Source: Clostridia bacterium
Lineage (GTDB): Bacteria > Bacillota_A > Clostridia > Oscillospirales > CAG-272
Direction of reading: 5' to 3'
DNA length: 64,000 nt
NCBI GenBank assembly: GCA_017468115.1
Contig: JAFUJS010000021.1
Coordinates: 10,460-74,459 of the forward strand
In this document: in pieces, positions 441-50,449 of the stretch
Numbering within the stretch: the first letter of the stretch is position 1
Layout of the letters: each line of letters opens with the position of its first letter
Position numbers and translations under genes: made by a program
Notes under the pieces: generated by a model
What the model saw: the letters and a program-made list of their open reading frames with translations, nothing else
Told to the model about the DNA's origin: nothing
The model's database searches: none

Positions 441-758
441 ATGAAAAAGCAAATCACAGCCGAGGTTGAGGACGAGAAAAAACCAAAAAAAGAGGTGGGG
501 GTGGAGCCACCCACCTTTTTAGATACTCTTGAAAAAATGCTGGGTCGAGCCGTCCCGACGGAGCTTTTGCCCGAGAGTATTAAGGCTTCAATGCCAAACG
601 GCACAGCCACCTATCAGGAGGCTGTGCTGATGGCGATGATAATCAAGGCTATGGGTGGGGACACCCAAGCCTCGGTTTATCTGAGGGATACCTCAGGCAA
701 CAAGCTAAAGGACGGCGCAAGGGTAAGGACGGCTAAAAAGCGCTTTGAGGATTTTTAG
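441..758 (+). CDS. DUF5681-like small phage protein
   Basis: A 105-residue protein with a charged, Lys/Glu-rich head (about 1-22) and a compact core ending in MAMIIKAMGGDTQASVYLRD (about 70-90). The pattern of an alanine/methionine helix, GDxxA and a closing DTSGNK resembles the small proteins encoded at the start of terminase operons in Clostridia phages (DUF5681-like). Such proteins are suspected small-terminase or DNA-packaging factors, but no large terminase follows here. It is the first gene of an eight-gene block and has only a weak AAGG ribosome binding site. The family assignment rests on recalled sequence pattern and is tentative. Confidence 0.55.
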   Translation: MKKQITAEVEDEKKPKKEVGVEPPTFLDTLEKMLGRAVPTELLPESIKASMPNGTATYQEAVLMAMIIKAMGGDTQASVYLRDTSGNKLKDGARVRTAKKRFEDF

Positions 759-776
759 CCGCAGGAAAGGAGAAAA

Positions 777-1403
777 ATGAAAGCAGGACAAGTAAAACTT
801 GACAGCCTGATGCTTATGTACCCCGAGGCAAGGCTACCGACAGGTAGCGAGGGGCAAAGCCTTACGGACATAATTTATCAGCTGAAATCAAACAAAAGCC
901 TTGCCGAATTTATCGTTGCCTCTGTGGGCGCAATCAACAGGGGCATTACATATCTTGAGGCAAGGGGCTTTGGCAAAATCAGGTGTCGGCTTATTTCTCT
1001 TAAGGAAACAGAGCCGCACAGCAGAGGCAGAGTCAAGCTAAGCCTGAACGACCAAAGGCTTCTTGTGGTAGAGGCAGTTTATGCGCTTGTGGGCGGAGAA
1101 AGGGTAATGATCCCCTTCGAGCTTTGCCCCGACCTTGTCTTTGAGGGCGGCTACTGTGAGTATGAAATCAAGTACAGAGAAAGCATACCGAGAATAAGCC
1201 AGCTGACCTCTGACGACAAGGAGCTGGAGCTATGGGACGGGCTTGCCGCATTGCTTCCTTACTTTGTAAAGAGCGAGCTTCTTTCAAACGAGGATGCCGA
1301 GGAAGCTAAAAGAGCAAGAGAGGAATTTGAAAAAGGAGTTTTTGAATATGAGTACCTTTTAGGCGGTGGGGAGCCAAAGGAAACCATATACAAGCATTTT
1401 TAA
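777..1403 (+). CDS. Putative phage connector-type protein
   Basis: 208 residues, not recognised by a firm motif. It begins MKAGQVKLDSLMLMYPEA, has a mixed alpha/beta middle with short Gly turns, and ends in an acidic helix (about 150-190: SKLLSNEDAEEA-like, RAREEFEKGVFEYEYL). Size, charge and position, directly before a large beta-rich structural protein, are those of head-tail connector or adaptor proteins of short-tailed and siphophages; that role is inference from context only. An AGGAGA ribosome binding site precedes the ATG, and the gene starts 18 nt after the previous stop. Confidence 0.45.
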   Translation: MKAGQVKLDSLMLMYPEARLPTGSEGQSLTDIIYQLKSNKSLAEFIVASVGAINRGITYLEARGFGKIRCRLISLKETEPHSRGRVKLSLNDQRLLVVEAVYALVGGERVMIPFELCPDLVFEGGYCEYEIKYRESIPRISQLTSDDKELELWDGLAALLPYFVKSELLSNEDAEEAKRAREEFEKGVFEYEYLLGGGEPKETIYKHF

Positions 1404-1406
1404 GCT

Positions 1407-3908
1407 ATGGAAAGAAAAATTCTTAAGTTGGACTTAAATCTGGGGCTTGAAAATGAAAACAACGGCTCCCTTACCCGAGCCTCTTTTCTCAAAAATATTA
1501 TTTTGAAAAACGGCGCAAGCTGCAAGCGCCCCGGCTGGGACGTAATCGGACAGCTGAAGGACGAGGATGGAGAGCTGAAAATAAACGGCATCTTCCCCTT
1601 TGTGGAAAACGGGCAAGAGGAATTAATCGTCCATGCAGGCACAAGGCTGTATAAATGCGCCAAGGACCTTTCGGAAATAAAGGAAATTGCACATGAGGGC
1701 TTTTCTATACAGGACCAACGCTCCCAAGGAGTTATTATTGATAACAGGCTTTGGCTTTTCGGTGTTGGGGTGCCCCTTGCCTACGATGGGGAGCTTAGCT
1801 TGGCGGTAGACGGAGAAAAAAGCTACGTGCCGACAACAAGGGTGGGCATTACCGATATATATAGTGGAGATATGTATAAGGACCTAGAAAAGCCCAACCT
1901 TCTTACCACGAAAAGAAAAAACAGGGCCTTAGGCAAGGACACCTATCGCACCCTGGAAAAAAGCCCTGTTATCAGCCTTGACGGGGACATTTTGTGGGGT
2001 AAGCCCATTGACGTTGAGGTAAGGCTCAGGGTAAGAGCGTACGGAGACGGTGTTAACGAAAACACCTCAATATATCGAGGCGTAAACCGTGAGGGAAAGG
2101 AGCAAAATATGGTGGTAGTGGCAAGCTTCCACCTTGACAGCGCAAGCCTTGGCGCAACCATAAAGCCCAGCGGTCCCTTGTATGACGAGATGGGCGATGA
2201 GGTTACAATAAAATTCGAGGACGAGACCCACTACACCTACGATACTCTGCCCTGGTACATAAGAATCACGGGCAAAAGACAGCTTACCTTCGATTTTGAT
2301 GCTCCAACACCCACAAATGGGGTAGACAACATTGAAATTACCTTTCATTCACAAAGTGAGGAATGGGACCTTTCAAAAATCCGATTAGGCGTTGTAACCA
2401 CCACCGAGTCGGGACAGGATGTGGCAGTTTTAGTCTGTGGCGACAATCTGATTAGATACACCGACTACGAAAAGGGAATGGCGTATATTCCAACTGCAAA
2501 CCTATTGCAAATAGGAAGCGGTGCGCAAATTTCCGCAATCGTGCCTGTGGCAGGCGGCTACCTTGGGGTGTTTACAGAAAACGGCTTTTACAAGATTAAG
2601 CTACCGGGAGGTAGTGAAAAGAGCATAAGCGCCTACAAGTCCACCGACAAGGTGGGCGCACTTTCCCAATGGTGCTGTATGACAGTAGACAGCGACACCG
2701 TGGTTCTTACCTCTAGTGGGGTCTATGGCGTTAAAACAGGGGAAAACGACGAAATAGTAAGCCAGCTATACAACCGTGGCACAAGAATAGATAATATTCT
2801 AAATACCTTTTCAAGAGAGCAGCTTAAAGGTGCTGTGGCAGCGGAGCATCAGGGCAGGCTCTACCTATTTATAGATGGCAACGTGCTTGTGGCGGACAGC
2901 CAAAAAAGAAGCACAAGAAAGGGGCTTGGCAGCGCCGCCTTTGAATACGAATGGTGGCTTTGGGACACTTGCCCTGCGAGGGTGGCTGTGTCAGCCTATA
3001 ACAAACTCTATATGGGCAGAGAGGACGGCACAATTGCCACTTTTGAAAGTCAAGGGGCAGACACCCACAAAAGGCGCTTTAGCGAGGAAGCATTAACCCT
3101 TGCCTTTTCTCACGACGAGGCGGACAGGAGCGTATATGTAGCAAGCGACCAGCCCCAAAATGGCACAGAGGCTAGGGTCAGCCCCCACAGAAGAAGGGTG
3201 GCGGAGGGCATAAAGTACCTTGAACAGGGTCTTTATTCCATTCCCAAGGACCAGCTTTTTGACAAAAACGGAGCATTAAGGGTCTTTGAAGGGGACTACT
3301 ATATTTGCAAGAAGGCAGGGGCAATCATAGAGCAAATCAAGGTCCTTCAGGTAGACCCACAGGCGTGCACCTTAAAATGCGAGGCAAGGTTCACAGGGGA
3401 AAACGGCTACCTGTACGTGCCCTGCGACGAAAAAACCGTCTACACGGTAAAAAGAGAGACAGAGGGCTTTAGCCTTTGGCTGGGAAGCGAGGGCGCTGTG
3501 CTCAAGGGCGACAGCCTTGTATTTACCCTTAACGAGGTAAGGGAGATTGAGTGCGAAATTGTGTCCTGCCCAATCAGCCTTGGAGAGCCGATTTTTAGAA
3601 AAAACCTTTGGGGAGTGTACGTAAAGCCCACAAAAAGCACCACAGGCGAGGTGGAAGTTGAGATAGAAACCCTGCGTGGAAAAAGCAAGGAGGTCCTAAG
3701 GCTGGACACCGCCCTCGATTTTGAGGAACTTGACCTTGGCTCCCTTGCCTTCGGGGGCAGCTTTGACCGAGCTGTGTATGTGCCCTTTTTTGAAAGAGGG
3801 GTAAGCTATCTTACCCTTACACTAAGGTCAAGGGGCAAGGACGACTTCGGCATAGAAGCGGTATATCTTTGCTACACCCAAGGAAAGAAACACAAAGGAG
3901 AAGGATAA
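1407..3908 (+). CDS. Large beta-rich phage structural protein
   Basis: 833 residues without signal peptide or membrane segment. The start (LKNIILKNGASCKRPGWDVI, about 30-49) matches the 'non-interacting residues, then KRPG' opening of phage tail-stabilisation/structural proteins. The middle (about 340-560) shows repeated short beta motifs such as GGYLGVFTENGFYKI, SGVYGVKTG and GRLYLFIDGNVLVAD, then WWLWDTCPARVA and YMGREDGTI, which look like beta-propeller blades and are common in virion proteins of Clostridia phages. The most likely role is a tail or neck component. Its TAA overlaps the next ATG (TAATG), so translation is coupled. The family call is from pattern memory; HHpred would decide. 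Confidence 0.6.
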   Translation: MERKILKLDLNLGLENENNGSLTRASFLKNIILKNGASCKRPGWDVIGQLKDEDGELKINGIFPFVENGQEELIVHAGTRLYKCAKDLSEIKEIAHEGFSIQDQRSQGVIIDNRLWLFGVGVPLAYDGELSLAVDGEKSYVPTTRVGITDIYSGDMYKDLEKPNLLTTKRKNRALGKDTYRTLEKSPVISLDGDILWGKPIDVEVRLRVRAYGDGVNENTSIYRGVNREGKEQNMVVVASFHLDSASLGATIKPSGPLYDEMGDEVTIKFEDETHYTYDTLPWYIRITGKRQLTFDFDAPTPTNGVDNIEITFHSQSEEWDLSKIRLGVVTTTESGQDVAVLVCGDNLIRYTDYEKGMAYIPTANLLQIGSGAQISAIVPVAGGYLGVFTENGFYKIKLPGGSEKSISAYKSTDKVGALSQWCCMTVDSDTVVLTSSGVYGVKTGENDEIVSQLYNRGTRIDNILNTFSREQLKGAVAAEHQGRLYLFIDGNVLVADSQKRSTRKGLGSAAFEYEWWLWDTCPARVAVSAYNKLYMGREDGTIATFESQGADTHKRRFSEEALTLAFSHDEADRSVYVASDQPQNGTEARVSPHRRRVAEGIKYLEQGLYSIPKDQLFDKNGALRVFEGDYYICKKAGAIIEQIKVLQVDPQACTLKCEARFTGENGYLYVPCDEKTVYTVKRETEGFSLWLGSEGAVLKGDSLVFTLNEVREIECEIVSCPISLGEPIFRKNLWGVYVKPTKSTTGEVEVEIETLRGKSKEVLRLDTALDFEELDLGSLAFGGSFDRAVYVPFFERGVSYLTLTLRSRGKDDFGIEAVYLCYTQGKKHKGEG

Positions 3909-5089
3909 TGGAAGAAAAATTCCTGTTAACCGACGAGGAAATTAATGAGGCGCTTCTTCGTTCACCATATTCGCTCCCAAGCTCCCCTTCGGAGCAGGGG
4001 CTAAGCGCCTCAACAATCAAAAAATTCTTTTACGACTTTATATTCAGCCTTGGAAAAAGCATCAACCTGCACCTTGCCGACCTGGGGGCAGAGCTTGCCA
4101 AGCAGGCGAGCAAGGACTCGGAGCTTGAGGGGGCGCTCGGCTCTCACGACATATCAGCTCTTGCGCATCAAAGCTTAATCACTGAGCTAAGAGGGCTTAT
4201 TTCAAATCTTGAAAAAGCTCACACAGTTCACGAGGCTGATCCACAGGCGCACAGCTCTTGTATAGTGGCACAGGTGGCATCTCATAACAGTAGCACCACC
4301 GCCCACGCAGATATCCGTCAGCTTGCAAGCGATAGCGGACTTCTTGCACAAAGGGCACTGAATTTAGCCTCAGGAAAGAGCAAGGTGATACCCGTTGAAG
4401 CGAGAGAGGATATGCTGGAGTACATTCAGCAAAATCAGCTTTTTGTGGGGGACGTGTTTATTTTAGAGGAAAAAAACACGCCGGACTTTACTTATTTTGG
4501 CACGGTAGATGACTCCTATGTCGACAGCGAAATAGCCAAGGGCGCAATACTTATAGACTACGACAAGGTTGCCACCTCGCAGGTGGATCTTGCGGCAGGC
4601 TGCGTTTATATTTTTGAGGGCAAAAAGCTTGTTGCCTCGGAAAGTGGCTTTGATATTTCTCTCCTTGCAAAGCAAGAGGAGCTAAACAGAGTAGCCGCAC
4701 AGCTTGATGAGCTTTCAACTCAGCTGGAGGCAACGCTATCGGAAATAGATACGGAGCTGACAAAAAAGGAAGAGGCACTTGCCTATGTGGAAAGCAGTGA
4801 GGAAAACCCCTTAATCGAAAGTGGTAAGGAATATAGCCTGGGCTTAAGGGCAAGCTTGTCTTTTAAGCTGCCTGAGGAAATAGATACGGGCTATTTTGCA
4901 ATAGTTAGCTTCAGAACAGGAGCAGAGGAAGCAAGCTTTTTGGCGCCTGAGGGTGCTTTAATCTCCGGTGATGATTGCCAAGAGGGAACATTTGTGCCAC
5001 AGACTTCAAGACTGTATGAGCTTAGCATAAAAAGTGTTTCGGGCATACCTGTCATCAGAGTTGCGGGGGCTGACTACGAGGTGATTTAA
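3908..5089 (+). CDS. Putative phage tail fibre protein
   Basis: 393 residues from the ATG that overlaps the previous stop; this start has AAGGAGAAGG just upstream and is preferred over the in-frame one at 3869. A region at about 70-150 carries repeated polar helices with H-x(n)-H spacing (SHDISALAHQS, HTVHEADPQAHSS, SHNSSTTAHADIR), a pattern I know from trimeric phage fibres. A coiled coil follows at about 255-295 (AAQLDELSTQLEATLSEIDTEL). The C-terminal 100 residues look like a beta domain. It probably forms a trimeric fibre attached to the preceding structural protein. Its stop again overlaps the next ATG (TAATG). Confidence 0.6.
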   Translation: MEEKFLLTDEEINEALLRSPYSLPSSPSEQGLSASTIKKFFYDFIFSLGKSINLHLADLGAELAKQASKDSELEGALGSHDISALAHQSLITELRGLISNLEKAHTVHEADPQAHSSCIVAQVASHNSSTTAHADIRQLASDSGLLAQRALNLASGKSKVIPVEAREDMLEYIQQNQLFVGDVFILEEKNTPDFTYFGTVDDSYVDSEIAKGAILIDYDKVATSQVDLAAGCVYIFEGKKLVASESGFDISLLAKQEELNRVAAQLDELSTQLEATLSEIDTELTKKEEALAYVESSEENPLIESGKEYSLGLRASLSFKLPEEIDTGYFAIVSFRTGAEEASFLAPEGALISGDDCQEGTFVPQTSRLYELSIKSVSGIPVIRVAGADYEVI

Positions 5090-6621
5090 TGGACATTAAA
5101 AACCAGCAAAGGCGACTTTTCAAGGAAAGATACATAAGAGGTACAATCAGAACCGCCTCGGGAGAAGGTCGAGCTTCTGTTGCAAGCAGTAGCGGAATAG
5201 GGCTTGAGAGCTTGATTATCAAGGGGAAAACCCTGCACAGAGAAAAAAGCCCCACCGAAAGAGTAAGAACGCTTTTGGAAAACGGCAGCTATATTCCGGC
5301 GGGGGTAACAGGTGCCTATGCTTATGCGCTCCCTGACGGCTTTGCGCAAAGCCAGCTTTCCTTTGTGCCTTCATTAAGCGCAGAAACAACAGGAATATCT
5401 GTGCTTCTTGCAGACAGCTCCAGCCTTTTGTTTTCAAACTCGGTAGAGCTTTTATCGACACAGGGTAGTGTAAATTCCTTTTCGGGAAGTGGTTACGGCT
5501 ACATTATCGTAAACGGAGCGCTTACCGATGAGGAGCTAAGCGCCCTTTGGCAAAATCTAAGCATTGAGGTAAGCATAATCGGCGATTATGCGGCTAACAG
5601 CGAGTATGAGGTTGTAAACGCAGGTGACAATGGCCTTTTGGTAAGGCTAACAAGCAAAAACCTACTAGATCATAAAAAACTCAAAGCAAGCGCCCTTTTT
5701 AATGTTGTCGGCTTGCCAAAGGGCGAGTACTATGGAGTGACAGGTGTTCCTACCAAAACCTCATACATAGCACCGTTCTCCAGCATGGTCGACAGCCCGG
5801 CAAGTATGACCCGGGACATGATAGGAAAGAGTCTTTCATACATTACGTTTTACGAGGGTGGCTACGGCGCAAGAAAGGCTGAGGTTGGACTTTACGATAG
5901 TACCAATAAGTTAAAATCCAAATGGGGAAATATGAAAAGAGACCTTCCTTATACTTACTTAGAGCCTGAGGGCAGAGATAAGTTTCATATTAGAGTGAAC
6001 TACACAACCGGAGAGGAAATTGATGAGGTCTTCAGATTTATGGCAATGGAAGGAGAGTGTAGCTCTATACCTGAGTTTGTGCCGTTCTTTGAGCCAACAG
6101 AGGTACAGCTACCCACTCAAGCAACGGACAAGCAGGGCAGAATTGTAAGTCTAAGCTTTGCGGGCTACGGTGATAACTGTGACTGTTTGGTAGTTAGCCG
6201 ACAGGGAAGGAAGGTTGTGTATTATCAGCACGTGGCAGAGCAGAACCCCGGCCTACCGCAAGAGGAGCAGACCATTCTTGATGAGCCTGTGGCATACGAC
6301 CTGTCGAGCTGCGACTTTGCAAGGCAGCTTTTCGATCTGGACGTGCCCTATAATAACAGCGGAGTGCTTTATGCAAAAGGGGCAGGACTTGTTGAGGTGA
6401 AATACTACGCCACACGAGGACAAGACCAAGTGACGCTAAGCATAAAATACGCTTGTCAGGGGGATGAGATTGGACAGAGCAAGACCTTCAATGTAAGAAA
6501 AGGCTGTCGAGTTGACATAATTGCCCCTCATATTTCAGGCTACACACCCCTCAAAAGGAGCGTTAGCCTTGCACCGAGGGAAAACACAGAAATGATACTG
6601 GAATACAGAAAGGACGAGTAA
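5089..6621 (+). CDS. Putative phage tail/receptor-contact protein
   Basis: 510 residues, soluble, beta-rich, no signal peptide. The middle (about 185-330) reads like a lectin-type module (SYIAPFSSMVDSPASM, SYITFYEGGYGARKAEVGLYD). The last 80 residues (about 430-510) contain repeats of the type VTLSIKYACQGDEIG...APHISGYTPLKRSVSL, resembling a MucBP/Ig-like surface-binding fold. A role as distal tail or adhesion protein is inferred from these features and the position after the fibre gene. Coupled by TAATG to both neighbours. I recognise no enzyme motif. Confidence 0.5.
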   Translation: MDIKNQQRRLFKERYIRGTIRTASGEGRASVASSSGIGLESLIIKGKTLHREKSPTERVRTLLENGSYIPAGVTGAYAYALPDGFAQSQLSFVPSLSAETTGISVLLADSSSLLFSNSVELLSTQGSVNSFSGSGYGYIIVNGALTDEELSALWQNLSIEVSIIGDYAANSEYEVVNAGDNGLLVRLTSKNLLDHKKLKASALFNVVGLPKGEYYGVTGVPTKTSYIAPFSSMVDSPASMTRDMIGKSLSYITFYEGGYGARKAEVGLYDSTNKLKSKWGNMKRDLPYTYLEPEGRDKFHIRVNYTTGEEIDEVFRFMAMEGECSSIPEFVPFFEPTEVQLPTQATDKQGRIVSLSFAGYGDNCDCLVVSRQGRKVVYYQHVAEQNPGLPQEEQTILDEPVAYDLSSCDFARQLFDLDVPYNNSGVLYAKGAGLVEVKYYATRGQDQVTLSIKYACQGDEIGQSKTFNVRKGCRVDIIAPHISGYTPLKRSVSLAPRENTEMILEYRKDE

Positions 6622-7220
6622 TGAAAAAGGTATTAACAACAATTGCCTGCGTTTTTTTGCTTGCCTGCTTGCTTGCGCTCTCCATTCTTGCGCAAGACGT
6701 TACAGGACAAGAGAAAAACCAAGAAACAGGCGAGGGAGTGTCTGATTTTGACACAGAGAGCTGGGACGTCAAGGACTATTTGATTGAGAAAATCGCACCC
6801 GTGCTTGTGGGCGTGCTAACCGGCGCCTGCGCACTTATAACAACCCTTGGCTCAATTAAAAAATCCTTAAGCTCCCTAAAAAATACAAAGGAAGAGCTAA
6901 GGGGCGAGGGCGAGAAAAGCAGAGAGCTGTTTTTGGAGCAATCAAATCAGCTTATTGCCTGTAGCTCAAAAATGGAGGACACAAGCCAGCACCTAGAGGA
7001 GCTGAAGGAAAAAATCGAGGTGCTTGAAAAGGAGCTTTACTATCTTAGCGAGCAAAGCATGAGCCTTGCCAAAATTATCACAATCGGCTTTTTGGGGGAC
7101 GAAAAGAGGGTTGGCTCCGGCAGGGGAGAGAAAATGATGCTCCTTTTGGAAAACAGCCAAGCCATGCTTGAACAAATCAGCAAGAAAATCAAGGACCTAA
7201 AGGCTAGCGAGGTGGAGTAA
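6621..7220 (+). CDS. Membrane-anchored coiled-coil protein
   Basis: 199 residues: N-terminal signal or anchor segment (1-24, KKVLTTIACVFLLACLLAL), a short acidic stretch, a second hydrophobic segment (about 58-79, IAPVLVGVLTGACALITTL) and a long coiled coil (about 80-195, rich in E/K/L heptads). Topology suggests a periplasm-facing loop with a cytoplasmic coiled coil, or the reverse. In phages, proteins of this build lie in lysis or superinfection-exclusion modules, but no lysin is nearby. Overlaps the preceding stop (TAATG). Function unknown. Confidence 0.5.
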   Translation: MKKVLTTIACVFLLACLLALSILAQDVTGQEKNQETGEGVSDFDTESWDVKDYLIEKIAPVLVGVLTGACALITTLGSIKKSLSSLKNTKEELRGEGEKSRELFLEQSNQLIACSSKMEDTSQHLEELKEKIEVLEKELYYLSEQSMSLAKIITIGFLGDEKRVGSGRGEKMMLLLENSQAMLEQISKKIKDLKASEVE

Positions 7221-7631
7221 ATGAACAGGCTAAGGCTTCCACTTTTATACCTGCTTTCCTTCACCCTTTCCCTAGGACCCGTTTTGGTATACTTCTTTAT
7301 CAATTTAGATAAATATGTAACCTCGGTAGCCGATGCTGTAAGGCTTTCCTTCGGGGGCGTGATTATTTTGGGCGTAGTGCTTTTGAAGGTGGTGGGGCTT
7401 TTGAAAATGCCACCGAGAATTGTGCTTTTTGCCTTGGTTTTTGCAGGCTGTTATCTTCTTAGCAGTATACTTAACGACCTGATTATCTTTTCCTTTCTTG
7501 CCTTAATTGGCGAAATTGGGGATTCTGTTTGCCAAATCTTTATAAGACGAGAAAAGGAAAGACGGCTGATTGAAAAAACGGCAAGGGCGACAGCCACCGC
7601 CCTTGAGTCAAGCTTTACAGGAAGGGTGTAA
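7221..7631 (+). CDS. Small polytopic membrane protein (holin-like?)
   Basis: 136 residues with three or four hydrophobic segments (about 7-27, 42-62, 66-86, 88-104) and a basic tail (RREKERRLIEKTARATA, about 108-125). Size, topology and the charged tail are compatible with a phage holin, but no known holin family is recognised. It starts immediately after the TAA of the previous gene, so co-translation is likely. Confidence 0.5.
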   Translation: MNRLRLPLLYLLSFTLSLGPVLVYFFINLDKYVTSVADAVRLSFGGVIILGVVLLKVVGLLKMPPRIVLFALVFAGCYLLSSILNDLIIFSFLALIGEIGDSVCQIFIRREKERRLIEKTARATATALESSFTGRV

Positions 7632-7634
7632 GCT

Positions 7635-8528
7635 ATGAAAAGAAACAGTTTCGAGGAGGGCTTTTACAAAAATGCAGGCTACATAGCCGTGGTGCTAATC
7701 TCCCTTGTGTATATTGCAGGGAGCATGCTTATGATTTCAAGGACAGGAAAAACTGTCCTTGAAATACTCGGCACAGGTATTCTTTCAATGCTGGTGGGCA
7801 TTCTTATCAACGGAGTTTTCCGTGGTATTGGTCTTAGGCGAGGGGATGAGGACGAGAAAATGGTGTCAACCACCGCCCTTCACGCAAGGACTGTGGAGGA
7901 AATAACCCCCTACATAGACAGGCTGGACAGCTTTTGTCAAATTGAAACGGAGGGCGCAAGAAAAAGCCTGCGCACACAAATTCTTTTGGAGGAGGGCATT
8001 GCCTACGACACGGTGTTTGACGGGGCAGGAACGCTGAAAATAAAGGAGCCCTACTACCTCTTTACAAAGGAAGAAATAGACAGCACCAAGGGCTTTTTTG
8101 CGAGGCAAGGGCAAAGGCGCAAGAACAGAAAATACAGACAAGCGATTTTAAGGGCGGTGCGCCTTAAAATCAAAAGGCTGACCCCCTCGTCGCTGACCAC
8201 GGACGGCGCAAGGGTGGAAAACCCCTTCGACTTCGGAAAAAGCAAAAGCCAGTTTTCCAGAGGCAGAGGGGCGTCCGATATAGTTATTCGTGTCCTGATG
8301 GCAATAATCTTTGGCTACTTTGGCGTCAGTCTAGTGGGCGAAATAAATATTGCCTCAATAATTTGGAATGCCCTGCAAATTGTAATGTATATTTGCGGCG
8401 GCATAATCCAAATGCACACCGCCTACGTATGGGTGGTGGACAGCTACCGCGGCTCTATTGTTCGAAGAATAGACCTGATTGAAAAATTCAAGCTTTTTGT
8501 GAAAAAAGAGCAGAAAGTCAATTTTTAG
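7635..8528 (+). CDS. Four-helix membrane protein with cytoplasmic domain
   Basis: 297 residues with two N-terminal membrane helices (about 14-34 and 42-64), a soluble middle of about 145 residues that is rich in Arg/Lys (RRKNRKYRQAILRAVRLKIKRL), and two C-terminal helices (about 213-235, 240-262) ending in a basic tail. No family recognised. It is the last gene of the coupled block (3-nt gap to the previous stop), and no terminator is visible before the transketolase promoter. Three consecutive membrane proteins at the end of a phage structural operon is unusual. Confidence 0.5.
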   Translation: MKRNSFEEGFYKNAGYIAVVLISLVYIAGSMLMISRTGKTVLEILGTGILSMLVGILINGVFRGIGLRRGDEDEKMVSTTALHARTVEEITPYIDRLDSFCQIETEGARKSLRTQILLEEGIAYDTVFDGAGTLKIKEPYYLFTKEEIDSTKGFFARQGQRRKNRKYRQAILRAVRLKIKRLTPSSLTTDGARVENPFDFGKSKSQFSRGRGASDIVIRVLMAIIFGYFGVSLVGEINIASIIWNALQIVMYICGGIIQMHTAYVWVVDSYRGSIVRRIDLIEKFKLFVKKEQKVNF

Positions 8529-8624: not shown

Positions 8625-9473
8625 GTGAGCGAAAACAAGATACTTGAGCTTAAGAAAATTGCTACTGAAATAAGGCTCGGCGCACTTGAGGCTGTTTACA
8701 ACGCAAAAAGTGGACATCCGGGTGGCGCACTTTCATCTGCTGATATTTTGGCGTGCCTTTACTTTTCAGAGCTAAATGTTAATCCACAAAATCCTGAGGA
8801 CGAAAACAGAGATAGGTTCGTTCTTTCCAAGGGTCATTCCTGCCCTGCATACTATGCGGCTCTTGCGCTAAAGGGCTACTTTAACAGGAGTGAGCTTAAA
8901 TGCTTCAGACAAATCGGCACCTTCCTTCAGGGTCACCCGGATATGAAGGGCATTAAGGGCGTTGATATGTCCACAGGCTCCCTGGGTCAGGGACTTTCTG
9001 TTGCCTGTGGTATGGCACTTGCCGCAAAGCTTGATGGCAAGGACTACCGCACCTATACAATAATTGGCGACGGAGAGAGCCAAGAGGGTCAGGTTTGGGA
9101 GGCAATTACCTTTGCTTCACACTACAAGCTTGACAACCTTTGCCTGATTATTGACAACAACGGCTTGCAGATAGACGGCAAGGTTAAGGATGTTATGAAC
9201 ATTATGCCTTACGCAAGCAAGCTAAAGGCATTTGGCTGGAATGTAATCTCTATTGACGGCCATAGCTATGAGGAAATCCTTTCCGCGTTTGACAGTGCGA
9301 AAAAGACAAAGGGCAAGCCTACCGCTATTGTGGCAAGCACAATAAAGGGCAAGGGCGTTTCCTTTATGGAAAATCAAGCAGGCTGGCATGGCAAGGCTCC
9401 AAACGAGGACCAGTATAATCTTGCGTTTAGTGAGCTTGTGGCATACAAAAATTCTCTTGGAGGTAACGAGTAA
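8625..9473 (+). CDS. Transketolase, N-terminal subunit
   Basis: 282 residues forming the thiamine-diphosphate-binding half of a split transketolase, which moves two-carbon ketol units in the non-oxidative pentose phosphate pathway. Visible motifs: SGHPGG near residue 28, SKGHSCPAYYA near 68, and the ThDP motif GDGESQEGQVWE...IIDNNGLQIDG (about 148-185). The GTG start is set by a GGAGGA ribosome binding site (8611-8616); no ATG fits better. It shares TAATG coupling with the C-terminal subunit, so the two form one enzyme. Full-length transketolases are about 650 residues; 282 + 316 matches the archaeal/Firmicute split form. Confidence 0.92.
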   Translation: MSENKILELKKIATEIRLGALEAVYNAKSGHPGGALSSADILACLYFSELNVNPQNPEDENRDRFVLSKGHSCPAYYAALALKGYFNRSELKCFRQIGTFLQGHPDMKGIKGVDMSTGSLGQGLSVACGMALAAKLDGKDYRTYTIIGDGESQEGQVWEAITFASHYKLDNLCLIIDNNGLQIDGKVKDVMNIMPYASKLKAFGWNVISIDGHSYEEILSAFDSAKKTKGKPTAIVASTIKGKGVSFMENQAGWHGKAPNEDQYNLAFSELVAYKNSLGGNE

Positions 9474-10423
9474 TGGCAGATAAGATAGCAACAAGAGAAG
9501 CCTATGGCAACGCCCTGTGCGAATTTGGCGGCGTTTATAAGGATATTGTAGTTTTGGACGCAGACCTTGCAGAGGCTACAAAGACTTGTATCTTCAAGAA
9601 AAAATATCCGGATAGATTTTTCGATTGCGGCATTTCAGAGAACAATATGGTTTGCGTTGCTGCCGGTCTTTCAACAGCAGGCAAGATTCCTTTTGTATCT
9701 ACCTTCGCAATGTTTGCGGCAGGCAGAAGCTTTGAGCAGATTAGAAACTCTATCGGCTACCCACACCTTAACGTAAAGATTTGCGCAACCCACGCAGGCA
9801 TCAGCGTTGGCGAGGACGGTGCAACACACCAATGCAACGAGGACATTGCTCTTATGAGAACAATTCCCGGTATGGTTGTTATAAACCCATCTGACGCAGT
9901 TGAGGCAAAGGCGGCGGTTGAGGCTGTAATTAAGTATAACGGACCTGCATATTTAAGATTTGGCAGACTTCCAATCTCCATTATCAACGATAACCCCGAC
10001 TATAAGTTTGAAATCGGCAAGGCTATTAAGATGGCTGACGGTATTGATGTTACCATCGTTGCAAACGGTATGATGGTTGAAGAGGCTTTGATTGCCCGTG
10101 AAATGTTGTTTTCCGAGGGTATTTCCGCCGCTGTTATCAATATGCACACAGTAAAGCCAATCGACGTTGAAATGCTTATTGCAGAGGCACAGCAGACAGG
10201 CGCTATCGTAACCAGTGAGGAGCACAACATTATCGGTGGACTTGGCTCTGCCGTGGCAGAGGCTCTTTCCGAAATTTGCCCTGTTCCTGTTGTAAGACAC
10301 GGTGTAAATGATGAGTTCGGTAAGAGCGGACCTGCAAAGGCACTGCTTGAGCACTACTCACTAAATGCCCGTGGCATTTGCGAAAAGGTTAAGCTTGCAC
10401 TTCAGCTAAAAAACTCAAGATAA
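9473..10423 (+). CDS. Transketolase, C-terminal subunit
   Basis: 316 residues containing the pyrimidine-binding and C-terminal domains of transketolase. The catalytic glutamate region reads CGISENNMVCVAAGLS (about 52-67), followed by FAMFAAGRSFEQIRNSI and HAGISVGEDGATHQ; the C-terminal domain begins around residue 190 (VTIVANGMMVEEAL). It overlaps the N-terminal subunit by one base, which supports balanced production of a two-subunit enzyme. A strong terminator follows after 5 nt. Confidence 0.92.
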   Translation: MADKIATREAYGNALCEFGGVYKDIVVLDADLAEATKTCIFKKKYPDRFFDCGISENNMVCVAAGLSTAGKIPFVSTFAMFAAGRSFEQIRNSIGYPHLNVKICATHAGISVGEDGATHQCNEDIALMRTIPGMVVINPSDAVEAKAAVEAVIKYNGPAYLRFGRLPISIINDNPDYKFEIGKAIKMADGIDVTIVANGMMVEEALIAREMLFSEGISAAVINMHTVKPIDVEMLIAEAQQTGAIVTSEEHNIIGGLGSAVAEALSEICPVPVVRHGVNDEFGKSGPAKALLEHYSLNARGICEKVKLALQLKNSR

Positions 10424-47867: not shown

Positions 47868-48254
47868 ATGAAGCATATAGCAATCACTGAAAATCATTTA
47901 TACTCTAAGGCATATGCCAAGGGCGGCAAGGCTGTTACAAAATCAGTTATCGTCTATGCCCTGAAGGACTTAAAGGCTAAAAGGCTTATGCTTGCCCACC
48001 CTATGAAGCAATTTGTCAACAGAATCGGACTTACGGTTTCCAAAAAAATCGGCAAGGCGACAGTCAGAAACAGGGTGAAGCGTGTTATACGTGAGGGCTT
48101 AAGACAAACAGAAAAGAGCTTTTCAACAAAAAAGGGCTACCTACTTGTGCTGGTGGCAAGACCGGCCATCATAGAAATGAAGAGCACACAGGTGGCACAG
48201 GACATCGAAAGGGCGCTTAAGTCGCTCAAAATTATTGATAATGAAAATAATTAG
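47868..48254 (+). CDS. rnpA: Ribonuclease P protein component
   Basis: 128 residues. Protein subunit of RNase P, which trims tRNA 5' ends. Conserved RNA-binding motif KATVRNRVKRVIREGLR (about 64-80) and NRIGLTVSKKIGKA. AGGAAG upstream. The yidD frame begins inside its last codons. Confidence 0.95.
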   Translation: MKHIAITENHLYSKAYAKGGKAVTKSVIVYALKDLKAKRLMLAHPMKQFVNRIGLTVSKKIGKATVRNRVKRVIREGLRQTEKSFSTKKGYLLVLVARPAIIEMKSTQVAQDIERALKSLKIIDNENN

Positions 48255-48510
48255 AAAAGTATTTACATTACCGCTTAAGGGTTATAAAAAATACATTTCC
48301 CCCTACTTACCAAAGGCGTGTAGATTTACACCGACCTGCTCCGAGTATGCCATTGAGGCAATTGAAAAATTCGGGGTTATAAGGGGTAGCCTTTTGGCAG
48401 GCTACAGGGTGCTTCGCTGCAACCCGTACTCCAAGGGCGGATATGACCCGGTGCCTGAGAAATTTACATTCAAAAGGCAACAACAAATTACAGGAGAAAC
48501 AAATAAATGA
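48241..48510 (+). CDS. yidD: Membrane protein insertion efficiency factor
   Basis: 89 residues from ATG 48241. The YidD hallmark CRFTPTCSEYAIEAIEKFG is at about 27-45, and CNPYSKGGYDPVP at about 60-72. Helps YidC insert membrane proteins. Overlaps rnpA (14 nt) and yidC (4 nt). Confidence 0.95.
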   Translation: MKIIRKVFTLPLKGYKKYISPYLPKACRFTPTCSEYAIEAIEKFGVIRGSLLAGYRVLRCNPYSKGGYDPVPEKFTFKRQQQITGETNK

Positions 48511-49577
48511 ACTTTTGGGATATTTTAGCTACTCCCTTTGCTTATGTAATGAAGGGCTGCTATTGGCTAACACAGAACTATGTTTTAGCCCTACTCCTAT
48601 TTGCATTTGTTATGCAAATTTTTATGTGCCTCGTGTTCGGCATCAGACAACAAAAGAACATGATTAAGCAAGCAAAGCTTCGCCCCTACGAGGCGATAAT
48701 TCGTAAAAAGTACGCCGGCAGAACCGACCAGGCTACAATGAAGAAGATGCAGGAAGAGATTATGGGTCTTTACCAAAAGGAGGGCTACAGCCCACTTGGC
48801 GGATGCCTACCAATGATTGTTCAGCTTATCATAATCTTCCCACTTTATGAGGTTGTAAGAAGACCGCTTGAGTTTATTTCCGGCTTTGCACAGAACACTT
48901 GTAACATTCTTGCAAGCGCATTTGGACTTGACTTTAACGGCACAGCTATTCAAATCAGAACCGCTACAAACCTAAGAACACACGACCTTGCGACAATTAC
49001 CGAAAAGGTACAGGCAATGGTAGGACAACCATACTGGAGCGAGACAGAGCTGTTCACACAGGAGCACGCAGATGCCGCAATCAGCGAGGTTGAGTATCTT
49101 TTGGAAAACAACTCCAAGTTTTTGCCGGACGTTACTATGTTTGGCGCAGACCTTGGTGTTACCCCATTTGACTCCTTTGGTCAATGGTATTGGTTCCTTA
49201 TCCTTATTCCGATTTTGAACCTTGGCTTTACCTACCTTTCACAGTTCCTTTCCAAGAAAATGACATATCAGCCGGCACAAGAGGGTCAGCAGGCTGCAGG
49301 CATGAATTCTATGAAGATTATGCTTTACGCAATGCCGCTTATGTCAATGTTCTTTACATTCACCTTCCCGGCTGCTATCGGTATTTACTGGATTTTCAGA
49401 ACAATTCTTAACACTCTTCAGCAGTTTATTTTGTCAAAGGCAATGCCTTATCCAAGGTACACCGACGAGGACATTAAGAATATAGAAAAGGAAATGAAGG
49501 AAGCCGCAAAGGGCAAAAACAAAAAGCGCCGTGAAATTGACGTTACAAACAGCGCAAAGGACGAGGGAGACGAATAA
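48507..49577 (+). CDS. yidC: Membrane protein insertase (YidC/Oxa1/SpoIIIJ)
   Basis: 356 residues with five to six membrane helices: about 24-46, 100-120 (SPLGGCLPMIVQLIIIFPLYEVV), 225-247, 265-290 (IMLYAMPLMSMFFTF) and 292-315. The Gram-positive type lacks the large periplasmic domain, but a 100-residue extracytoplasmic loop (about 120-220) is longer than in SpoIIIJ. No lipobox at the N-terminus. Overlaps jag. Confidence 0.94.
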   Translation: MNFWDILATPFAYVMKGCYWLTQNYVLALLLFAFVMQIFMCLVFGIRQQKNMIKQAKLRPYEAIIRKKYAGRTDQATMKKMQEEIMGLYQKEGYSPLGGCLPMIVQLIIIFPLYEVVRRPLEFISGFAQNTCNILASAFGLDFNGTAIQIRTATNLRTHDLATITEKVQAMVGQPYWSETELFTQEHADAAISEVEYLLENNSKFLPDVTMFGADLGVTPFDSFGQWYWFLILIPILNLGFTYLSQFLSKKMTYQPAQEGQQAAGMNSMKIMLYAMPLMSMFFTFTFPAAIGIYWIFRTILNTLQQFILSKAMPYPRYTDEDIKNIEKEMKEAAKGKNKKRREIDVTNSAKDEGDE

Positions 49578-50449
49578 TGAGACAGGAATTTACAATACAA
49601 GCAAAAACCGTTGAGGAAGCATATGCAAAGGCGCACGACATTTATGACGCACTTGGCGAGCTTACAATCGAGGTTATAAATCAAGGCAAAAAGGGCTTTC
49701 TTGGTATCGGCAGAGTACCTGCTGAAATCAAGGTTATCGTTGATGACGGTGTAGAGGAGCCAAAGCAACCAAAGCAACCAAAGCAGCAGCCACAGCCAAA
49801 GCAGGAAAAGAAGGCTGAGGCGCCAAAGAAAAAGGAAAACAAAAAGCCACAGCAAAAGCAGCAGCCAAAGGCTGAGCCTAAGGCAGAGCCAAGAAAGGAA
49901 GAGCCAAAGGCAACACAAACAAAGGAAGAAAAGGAAGAGAGCATCAACGTAACAGTTGAGGAAAAGACTCTTGCTATGAACTTTCTTAAGGACTTTGTTC
50001 GTGACATCGGCTTTAACTGCCAGGTTAAGGGAGACTTGACTCTTAACGAAAAGGGCTTTGTTTCAAGACTTATCACAATCGAGGGCGAGGATGCGCATAG
50101 CCTTATCGGCCACCGTGGCGAGATGCTTGATGCACTCCAGTACCTTTCAAACCTTTGCCTAGCACGCAAGAGCGAGGGCGAGCACAAGGAATACGTTAAG
50201 GTAATTATCGACATCGAAAATTACAGAGAGAAGAGAGAGGAAACTCTCCGTGCTCTTGCAAGAAGAATGGCAGAAAAGGCGCTTAAGTACCAAAGAAACG
50301 TTCTTCTTGAGCCAATGAACCCATATGAGAGAATGATTATTCACTCTGAAATTCAGGGCATTGAGGGTGTTTCTACCCACTCTGTTGGCTATGACGAAAA
50401 CCGCAAAATCGTTATTACCTGCGAAAATAAGAAGAGAAACAAAAAATAA
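49577..50449 (+). CDS. jag: Jag/KhpB RNA-binding protein
   Basis: 290 residues. Jag_N domain (about 1-52, TIQAKTVEEAYAKAHDIYDAL), a low-complexity Lys/Pro/Gln/Glu linker (about 57-125), KH domain (about 130-215, LIGHRGEMLDALQYLSNLC) and R3H domain (about 225-288, ARRMAEKALKYQRNVLLEPMNPYERMIIHS). Partners YidC in sporulating and non-sporulating Firmicutes and binds RNA. One-base overlap with yidC. Confidence 0.94.
   Translation: MRQEFTIQAKTVEEAYAKAHDIYDALGELTIEVINQGKKGFLGIGRVPAEIKVIVDDGVEEPKQPKQPKQQPQPKQEKKAEAPKKKENKKPQQKQQPKAEPKAEPRKEEPKATQTKEEKEESINVTVEEKTLAMNFLKDFVRDIGFNCQVKGDLTLNEKGFVSRLITIEGEDAHSLIGHRGEMLDALQYLSNLCLARKSEGEHKEYVKVIIDIENYREKREETLRALARRMAEKALKYQRNVLLEPMNPYERMIIHSEIQGIEGVSTHSVGYDENRKIVITCENKKRNKK

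Follow-up and report, generated by a model that had tools for sequence, protein, structure and literature searches.

The locus examined here raises the question of what eight phage-like structural genes are doing in a bacterial genome when no capsid gene accompanies them in the 64,000 nucleotides that we analyzed (hereafter, the window). A first reading of the sequence alone (the sequence-only reading) had proposed either a prophage edge whose remainder was deleted or a domesticated, capsid-less device derived from a tail. Comparison across the genus suggests a different answer. We consider it likely that these genes constitute the tail operon of a podovirus-type element that resembles a gene transfer agent (GTA), is inherited vertically, and is split in two. 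The element would have originated from a temperate short-tailed phage, and its head operon would be encoded elsewhere.

An Intact Block of Probable Tail Genes Between Host Genes

The block spans positions 441–8528 and comprises eight intact ORFs in one direction (forward strand). Its junctions are an 18-nt gap, a 3-nt gap, three TAATG overlaps, 0 nt, and 3 nt, so the tightly packed genes and undamaged frames described initially are real, and the same order recurs in two related loci, L001 and L002 (gp3 identity 63 and 31%, respectively), which is beyond chance. To the right lie the split host transketolase genes tktN-tktC (8625–10423, forward strand), the usual neighbor of the block, and to the left the start only of a host gene on the reverse strand (1–30). 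Viewed through L001, the region upstream of position 1 contains the counterpart of this gene (7888–8709 of L001), which encodes a zinc-ribbon protein (PF13240, Pfam), followed by dxs. Host genes are found on both sides of the block in the window, L001, L002, L060, and L067, and thus the block is not embedded in the continuous full phage genome, integrase and replication genes included, that a temperate podovirus would have. Profiles of the small terminase (TerS), large terminase (TerL), portal, scaffold, and major capsid protein (MCP), together with prophage queries (internal protein, giant protein), detected no further element genes in the 64 kb, consistent with the initially noted lack of large terminase, portal, and capsid genes in the window; besides the tkt and dxs controls, the other profile matches were three to gp6, all below 15 bits.

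The first protein, gp1 (441–758), is identified by homology as a small terminase of the GTA type, without a recognized helix-turn-helix (HTH), since its homologues overlap the start of the large-terminase gene by 4 nt in two relatives, G314 (L176, E 2e-39) and G315 (L180, E 5e-38). Its C-terminal FED motif resembles that of 16 of the 17 ORFs that immediately precede TerL in prophages or in contiguous elements. Family searches gave no HTH match for gp1; HTH matches were obtained for all eight prophage TerS tested (only one of which passes Pfam's cut-off) versus none of seven GTA-type TerS. All 17 family members belong to phrog_2412 (function unknown), and the initial label "DUF5681-like" was fair, given that a gp1 homologue weakly matches PF18932.

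The next two proteins had been called a connector and a beta-propeller, correctly in both cases. The profile of gp2 (A12; gene at 777–1403) matches the PDB structure 9d83_B, "Head to tail adaptor Gp50" (E 2e-5), and fold comparison indicates that gp3 (1407–3908) is a beta-propeller tail nozzle of the short-tailed-phage type, with the fold of the P22 gp10 and T7 gp12 nozzles. The variable, fibre-like gp4 (3908–5089) has no significant family match and is 54 and 37% identical to its counterparts in L001 and L002. A second adhesion-like protein, gp5 (5089–6621), is the least similar of the eight to its counterparts in these two loci (43 and 26% identity), and no gp5 match was found in three genomes that carry the block (G091, G297, and G310); one clade lacks it.

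A simple hydropathy scan of the window copies finds two, four, and four membrane segments in gp6 (6621–7220), gp7 (7221–7631), and gp8 (7635–8528), in agreement with the three membrane proteins first noticed. The N-terminal hydrophobic segment of gp6 is combined with a coiled coil, and homologues occur in complete prophages. The four-segment gp7 belongs to an unnamed phage family (none of its 20 members has a PHROG match at E 0.01) and gp8 to an uncharacterized one (none of 23 members with a PHROG match); the AF2 model of gp8 (pLDDT 77.7) has four BFVD phage-protein matches, none functionally named (E 2e-6 to 4e-4). These two are the best conserved proteins of the block. The trio had been taken as a substitute for a lysis cassette, an idea that does not hold, as related complete prophages have this trio at the equivalent position; gp6–gp8 thus belong to the ancestral phage module. 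No protein of the block matches a holin or endolysin family and no endolysin was recognized in either the head or the tail operon. The trio may serve lysis or form an injection channel.

Head Genes at a Second Locus in Relatives

We searched 29 genomes of the genus of the window organism, in which all relatives are draft assemblies. The block occurs in 17 of them, in some without gp5 and in four broken by contig ends, and directly precedes tktN in 15 of the 17. TerL, portal, and MCP each match 22 of the 29 genomes, the same seven lacking all three. In 16 of the 17 carriers, TerL, portal, scaffold, and capsid genes form a second locus between an ACT gene and noc-parA-parB (TerL and the ACT gene share a contig in 12 of these 16, MCP and the noc-like gene in 14); in the 17th, G306, the contig stops 0.55 kb past the ACT gene, before the place of the head locus. 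Split head and tail thus co-occur in 16 genomes, tail only in one, head only in none, and neither in 12 (Fisher p 2.5e-7, uncorrected for shared ancestry); of the last 12, six have no element and six have contiguous forms. The ACT gene adjoins a transporter-like operon in all nine genomes examined that have neither split half. The suggestion of a capsid-less device is therefore very probably wrong. We refer to the split arrangement as class A: its head loci begin at TerL, TerS (gp1) being in the tail operon, and in G001 the two operons span 5.4 and 8.2 kb.

The head locus was read in the relatives, the window itself showing tail genes alone, and the nearest hint of the window's own head locus is a portal (P0006) 88% identical to that of G001. 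That head and tail are unlinked is read from their different flanks and contigs, all the comparison genomes being drafts whose completeness is not stated. The class A blocks of G214, G303, G306, and G313 were each pieced together from two contigs, and L036 (G119), with gp8 only, was placed in no class. One locus (L158; G310 C31) was dropped as contamination, being 97% identical to the G001 head locus. A single homology search matched 16 genomes, eight of them outside the genus (five with complete phage modules, two with partial ones, and one with gp8 only). Pfam confirmed dxs, ACT, noc-like ParB, parA, parB, the zinc ribbon, and the G298 prophage integrase on one example each, and phmmer to the G001 copies gave the remaining ACT, noc, parA, and parB assignments; metA, metY, UPF0210/PFL, the transporter operon, OAD genes, and prophage replication genes were labeled by sequence reading, without family search.

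Inheritance, Selection, and Alternative Explanations

Head and tail genes are vertically inherited and under purifying selection. Class A is monophyletic in both tails (1.00) and heads (0.98), and across 15 genomes Mantel correlations are 0.87 (tail-host), 0.81 (head-host), and 0.75 (tail-head), with G300 and G306 left out because no single unit gave their head genes. In the tail tree, from which G307C was omitted because gp8 is missing from its locus, the contiguous elements of G314 and G315 group with class C; the head tree places G314 beside class A, and the host tree places it weakly inside the class A hosts. Values of dN/dS are 0.09–0.33 between the window and G001, its nearest relative, and 0.04–0.14 for head genes of other pairs where computable, many dS values being saturated. 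TerL motifs are kept where covered, save for a G to S change in the first motif of G001 (SRQQGFT versus GRQQGFT in all the other TerL copies covering it).

Could the two loci instead encode a killer particle of the PBSX type, in which gp4/gp5 would target relatives, gp6–gp8 may act at membranes, and the packaged DNA would be irrelevant? The divergence of gp5 and its loss in one clade fit such a role, and the excerpted text of PMC12946183 discusses the PBSX precedent. However, a pure killer would have less need of TerS, which is kept, and of TerL, whose motifs largely are, and we regard this explanation as unlikely. Far less probable is a prophage in decay, its parts dispersed by rearrangement and persisting by chance. 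Complete related prophages do exist in the genus, and TerL of G297, split over two frames, looks broken; against this, the loci recur in most carriers with congruent divergence, dN/dS is well below 1, and the tail genes are long open frames. The recurrent position before tktN (15 of 17 carriers) and the divergence that tracks the host likewise speak against a prophage edge whose remainder was randomly deleted, and support the "domesticated" part of the sequence-only reading. Equally improbable is a tail device acting alone (a podovirus-type tailocin, an adhesin, or superinfection exclusion), with a head locus serving something else: the window holds phage genes of the tail only and cell binding by a nozzle and fibre is conceivable, but capsid, portal, and TerL accompany the tail in 16 of 17 carriers, the head locus never occurs alone, TerS sits in the tail operon, and head and tail are contiguous in sister species.

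Related Prophages and Contiguous Elements

Complete or near-complete prophages found in this genus and in related ones (L026, L029, L031, L033, L037, and L057) have homologous head and tail genes in the same relative order. Unlike the split element, they encode TerS with an HTH where tested (G298, G218, and G156), longer portals, and a giant protein after gp8, in most preceded by an internal protein; an integrase gene (PF00589) lies near the G298 prophage. In the last 130 alignment columns, portals retain 82–109 residues in six prophages, 53–57 in three contiguous elements, and 3–29 in 15 split ones. No giant virion protein is encoded beside either class A locus. Genome-wide, it is absent from eight of the 17 class A genomes, present as fragments in seven, and full-length with its own prophage in two; since it is absent from only eight, a third locus could exist.

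The contiguous versions in sister species suggest how the split arose: TerL, portal, scaffold, and capsid genes probably moved out of an ancestor in which all were contiguous, so that TerS stayed behind ahead of gp2. More broadly, we see an even balance of probability for at least two domestications of related podoviruses into working GTAs in this genus (contiguous class C, and contiguous class D with split class A). On each occasion TerS would have lost its DNA-binding domain, the portal would have become shorter, and the giant internal protein would have disappeared; class A would in addition have separated TerS and the tail genes from TerL and the head genes, and living relatives would preserve the steps from prophage to GTA.

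Proposed Function and Relationship to Known Gene Transfer Agents

GTA particles carry random host DNA, too little to hold their own genes. Class A has structural and packaging genes at more than one locus (16 of 17 genomes), TerL, and a TerS apparently lacking a DNA-binding domain; no replication or integration genes were recognized on reading its loci. Judging from its genes alone, the split GTA-like element probably packages and transfers host DNA. Both operons would be induced simultaneously in a subset of cells, with capsid and portal assembling into the head and gp1 directing TerL to host DNA irrespective of its sequence. Once TerL had filled the head, gp2 and gp3 would seal it and provide the short tail, while gp4/gp5 would bind related cells; upon lysis of the producing cell, the particle would inject host DNA into a relative. 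Alphaproteobacterial GTAs have a carbon-poor amino-acid composition, which is absent here (carbon atoms per residue versus prophages: TerL 5.16 versus 5.06, portal 5.03 versus 4.91, MCP equal).

The element shares the P22_portal family (PF16510), nozzle fold, and adaptor with P22/T7-type podoviruses, whereas its genes are split in two and neither locus adjoins a gene for a giant internal virion protein. In gene content it resembles FpGTA, another podovirus-type GTA-like element of Gram-positive gut bacteria with two separate operons. As given in the excerpted text of PMC12946183 (Borodovich et al., 2026), FpGTA operon I, present in all 12 Faecalibacterium genomes of that study, encodes TerS (without an obvious DNA-binding domain), TerL, portal, scaffold, and MCP, and operon II encodes baseplate, fibre, receptor-binding protein, holin, and endolysin. 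Relative to that account, class A differs in that TerS is grouped with the adaptor and nozzle in the tail operon rather than with TerL-portal-scaffold-MCP, the head operon lies between the ACT gene and noc-parA-parB, no holin or endolysin is recognized, and the genus is another. RcGTA gp1, described in the excerpted text of PMC6854486 as a small TerS without an N-terminal DNA-binding domain whose C-terminus binds TerL, is similar to the gp1 of the block by description; unlike the latter, it is from an alphaproteobacterium, where its gene stands immediately ahead of TerL in a core cluster that also includes tail genes.

A single gut Clostridia genus thus contains, side by side, prophages and both contiguous and split GTA-like forms whose genes are homologous. 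This makes it possible to test an order of domestication in which TerS would lose its sequence specificity, the portal would shorten, and the giant protein would disappear, with the split coming last. If this is true, some "prophage remnants" of gut Clostridia would each be one half of a functioning apparatus for DNA transfer, easy to overlook since hallmark genes are missing from either half. As to source, two named metagenome-assembled genomes came from sheep colon and roe deer rectum.

The tail block and its protein identities

As the sequence-only reading had claimed, positions 441–8528 hold eight intact ORFs (gp1 to gp8) in one direction with tight junctions, and our search of the rest of the 64-kb window likewise found neither terminase nor portal, capsid or giant virion protein genes. 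A split transketolase pair (tktN-tktC) adjoins the block on the right. On the left, a minus-strand gene starts at positions 1–30; its counterpart in L001, the closest relative's locus, encodes a zinc-ribbon protein and is followed by dxs. About 39 kb from the block, at 47868–50449, is a cluster labelled from sequence as rnpA-yidD-yidC-jag-like, an arrangement commonly found near the replication origin.

The gp3 model (pLDDT 86) has a podovirus nozzle fold, and its top 27 PDB matches are without exception phage tail or virion chains. The protein earlier described as connector-like, gp2, does match a solved head-to-tail adaptor (E 2e-5). We identify gp1 as the small terminase (TerS) because its homologue overlaps the TerL start by 4 nt in G314 and G315, two genomes in which TerS and head genes are contiguous. 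In prophages and contiguous elements, 16/17 ORFs directly upstream of TerL end in a [KR]FE[DE] motif, and all aligned gp1 proteins but one end similarly. Helix-turn-helix (HTH) matches were found in all eight prophage TerS tested (one above Pfam's cut-off) and in none of seven GTA-type TerS, window gp1 included; loss of the DNA-binding domain is argued in PMC6854486 to mark GTA-type TerS. Searches of 395 genomes of the family gave 15 strong gp1 matches, every one within the genus, plus three weak matches beyond it, so that the gp1 family appears almost confined to the genus.

The membrane proteins gp6, gp7 and gp8 occupy the same position in complete prophages and thus are not an odd substitute for lysis genes, contrary to the initial interpretation. 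Neither gp7 nor gp8 had a PHROG match in any scanned member.

Recurrence of the block and a separate head locus

A gp3 genome scan matched two MAG loci, both with the eight genes in the same order and then transketolase. Matches to gp8 occur in 16/295 genomes of the family and 23/29 of the genus. Window DNA aligns to all 29 genus genomes, best to G001 (83% over 7.5 kb). The check for the same gene order elsewhere recovered the block without linked head genes in 17/29 genus genomes (class A; four blocks, in G214, G303, G306 and G313, each assembled from two contigs). In 15 of these 17, tktN directly follows gp8; in G313 tktC precedes the block, and in G300 the contigs stop short of the junction. 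No gp5 match was found in three class A genomes (G091, G297 and G310), and their fibre regions (L056, L066 and L032) carry other small genes, which together suggests exchange of the receptor-binding part.

Prophage-derived portal, MCP and TerL profiles each match 22/29 genus genomes, leaving the identical seven unmatched. Class A matches are arranged TerL-portal-scaffold-MCP, without gp2 or gp3, at a separate locus in 16/17 block-carrying relatives (as fragments in G303 and G300), and the earlier description of the system as capsid-less is therefore very probably wrong. The G001 portal belongs to P22_portal and its MCP matches the phrog_267 major head protein (2.6e-39); a profile of prophage MCPs hits a capsid protein of known structure (8e-37).

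Among the 16 class A genomes with head genes, an ACT gene shares a contig with TerL in 12, one gene away in G002 and G301 and two in G313, and a noc-like gene shares a contig with MCP in 14, with both parA and parB further along in 8 and just parB in 2. The gene between TerL and ACT in G002 (L151 7043–9058) and G301 (L155 13912–15933) encodes 671–673 aa on the strand opposite TerL, and Pfam gave no match for the copy in G002. G306, the only class A genome without head genes, has a contig that stops 0.55 kb past the ACT gene. Beside the ACT gene, nine further genomes have a transporter-like operon and no head gene. Profile searches of the 29 genomes found neither block nor head genes in six, although gp3 matched one of these, G312, weakly twice (E 7e-6 and 5e-5). 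Portal and gp8 bear distant locus tags in the public MAGs E7596, IJ437 and IJ004, compatible with a split element. Another public MAG portal, P0006, is 88% identical to that of G001 and may come from the window's species or another close one.

Descent, selection and a possible particle

In concatenated trees all class A tails group together (support 1.00), as do all class A heads (0.98, some inner nodes weak), with prophages outside in both; most transketolase host clades reappear in the two trees. Distance matrices of 15 genomes correlate at r = 0.87 (tail-host), 0.81 (head-host) and 0.75 (tail-head), each with the smallest p value that the permutations allow (2e-4). Comparing the window with G001 gives dN/dS ratios of 0.33 for gp1, 0.23 each for gp2, gp3 and gp6, and 0.09 each for gp7 and gp8, with gp4 and gp5 near synonymous saturation; for head genes, other genome pairs give 0.04–0.14, and many of these comparisons approach or reach saturation. 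TerL copies covering the ATPase and nuclease motifs retain them with two blemishes: serine replaces the first glycine of the first motif in G001, and G297 TerL is broken across two frames.

From gene content, these two recurrent, co-inherited and selected operons are predicted to encode jointly, in relatives, a DNA-packaging short-tailed particle. No mobilisation genes were recognised beside the two operons of relatives. Head and tail operons would be induced together, a TerS without sequence choice would lead to unselective packaging of host DNA, and released particles would deliver it to related cells.

The nearest published system is FpGTA of Faecalibacterium, presented in PMC12946183 as the first podovirus-shaped GTA-like element. 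By its description there, it shares the kind and the two-operon layout; here, however, the breakpoint differs, with TerS within the tail operon, the genomic sites and genus are others, and no holin or endolysin was recognised. That paper also describes GTA-like packaging, genes not identified, in further gut Clostridia: Gemmiger, CAG-115, Ruminococcus callidus, Onthomonas and two Christensenellaceae groups. Among the matches listed from full-text literature (excluding preprints and most subscription papers), there was no other gene-level Clostridia GTA.

A gradation of prophage, contiguous and split forms within the genus

Prophage-type loci have an HTH-bearing TerS and a giant protein after gp8. 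In the last 130 alignment columns, portals retain 82–109 residues in prophages (six measured, five from other genera), 53–57 in contiguous elements (three measured) and 3–29 in class A (15 measured). Four genomes encode the giant protein in full, each with prophage-type loci; class A genomes have none (8/17) or fragments only (7/17). At the prophage-type loci L068 (4625–11398), L064 (3351–9923) and L034 (328–7428), giant proteins of 2200–2400 aa come after gp8 and an internal protein; fragments occur in nine genus genomes, and an HExxH-like motif was seen by eye in the consensus. Besides both class A loci, G298 has a separate integrase-bearing prophage; G214 contains another two loci in which head and tail genes are contiguous and TerS bears an HTH, and G311 has prophage genes spread over two contigs.

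Two contiguous types were distinguished. Class C (G243, G295, G307 and G308) has its own TerS, HTH-less in the three tested, and contig ends separate gp4/gp5 from gp6–gp8 in all four; G243 and G295 have host-like genes and no giant protein after gp8. Class C is possibly an independent domestication. Its loci are L028 (7732–9691), L030 (2–1838), L065, L139, L146, L167, L168, L182 and L185; G307 holds the TerS-to-gp4 part, and OAD-like genes lie near gp8 in G243 and G295 and near TerL in G308. Class D, found on a single contig in G314 and across two in G315, has a gp1-type TerS and a divergent gene after gp8. G314 stands beside class A in the head tree (support 0.99); taken together with the gp1 that they share, this suggests an origin of class A through departure of TerL-portal-scaffold-MCP from a D-like ancestor. 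Class D groups with class C in the tail tree and G314 falls weakly within class A hosts in the host tree, so exchange or rate effects are possible.

An unannotated 9.6-kb human faecal 'Bacteriophage sp.' scaffold (L170, MT836592.1), whose TerL does not match the profile used here, has homologues of portal, scaffold, MCP, gp2 and gp3 together with a collagen-like fibre.
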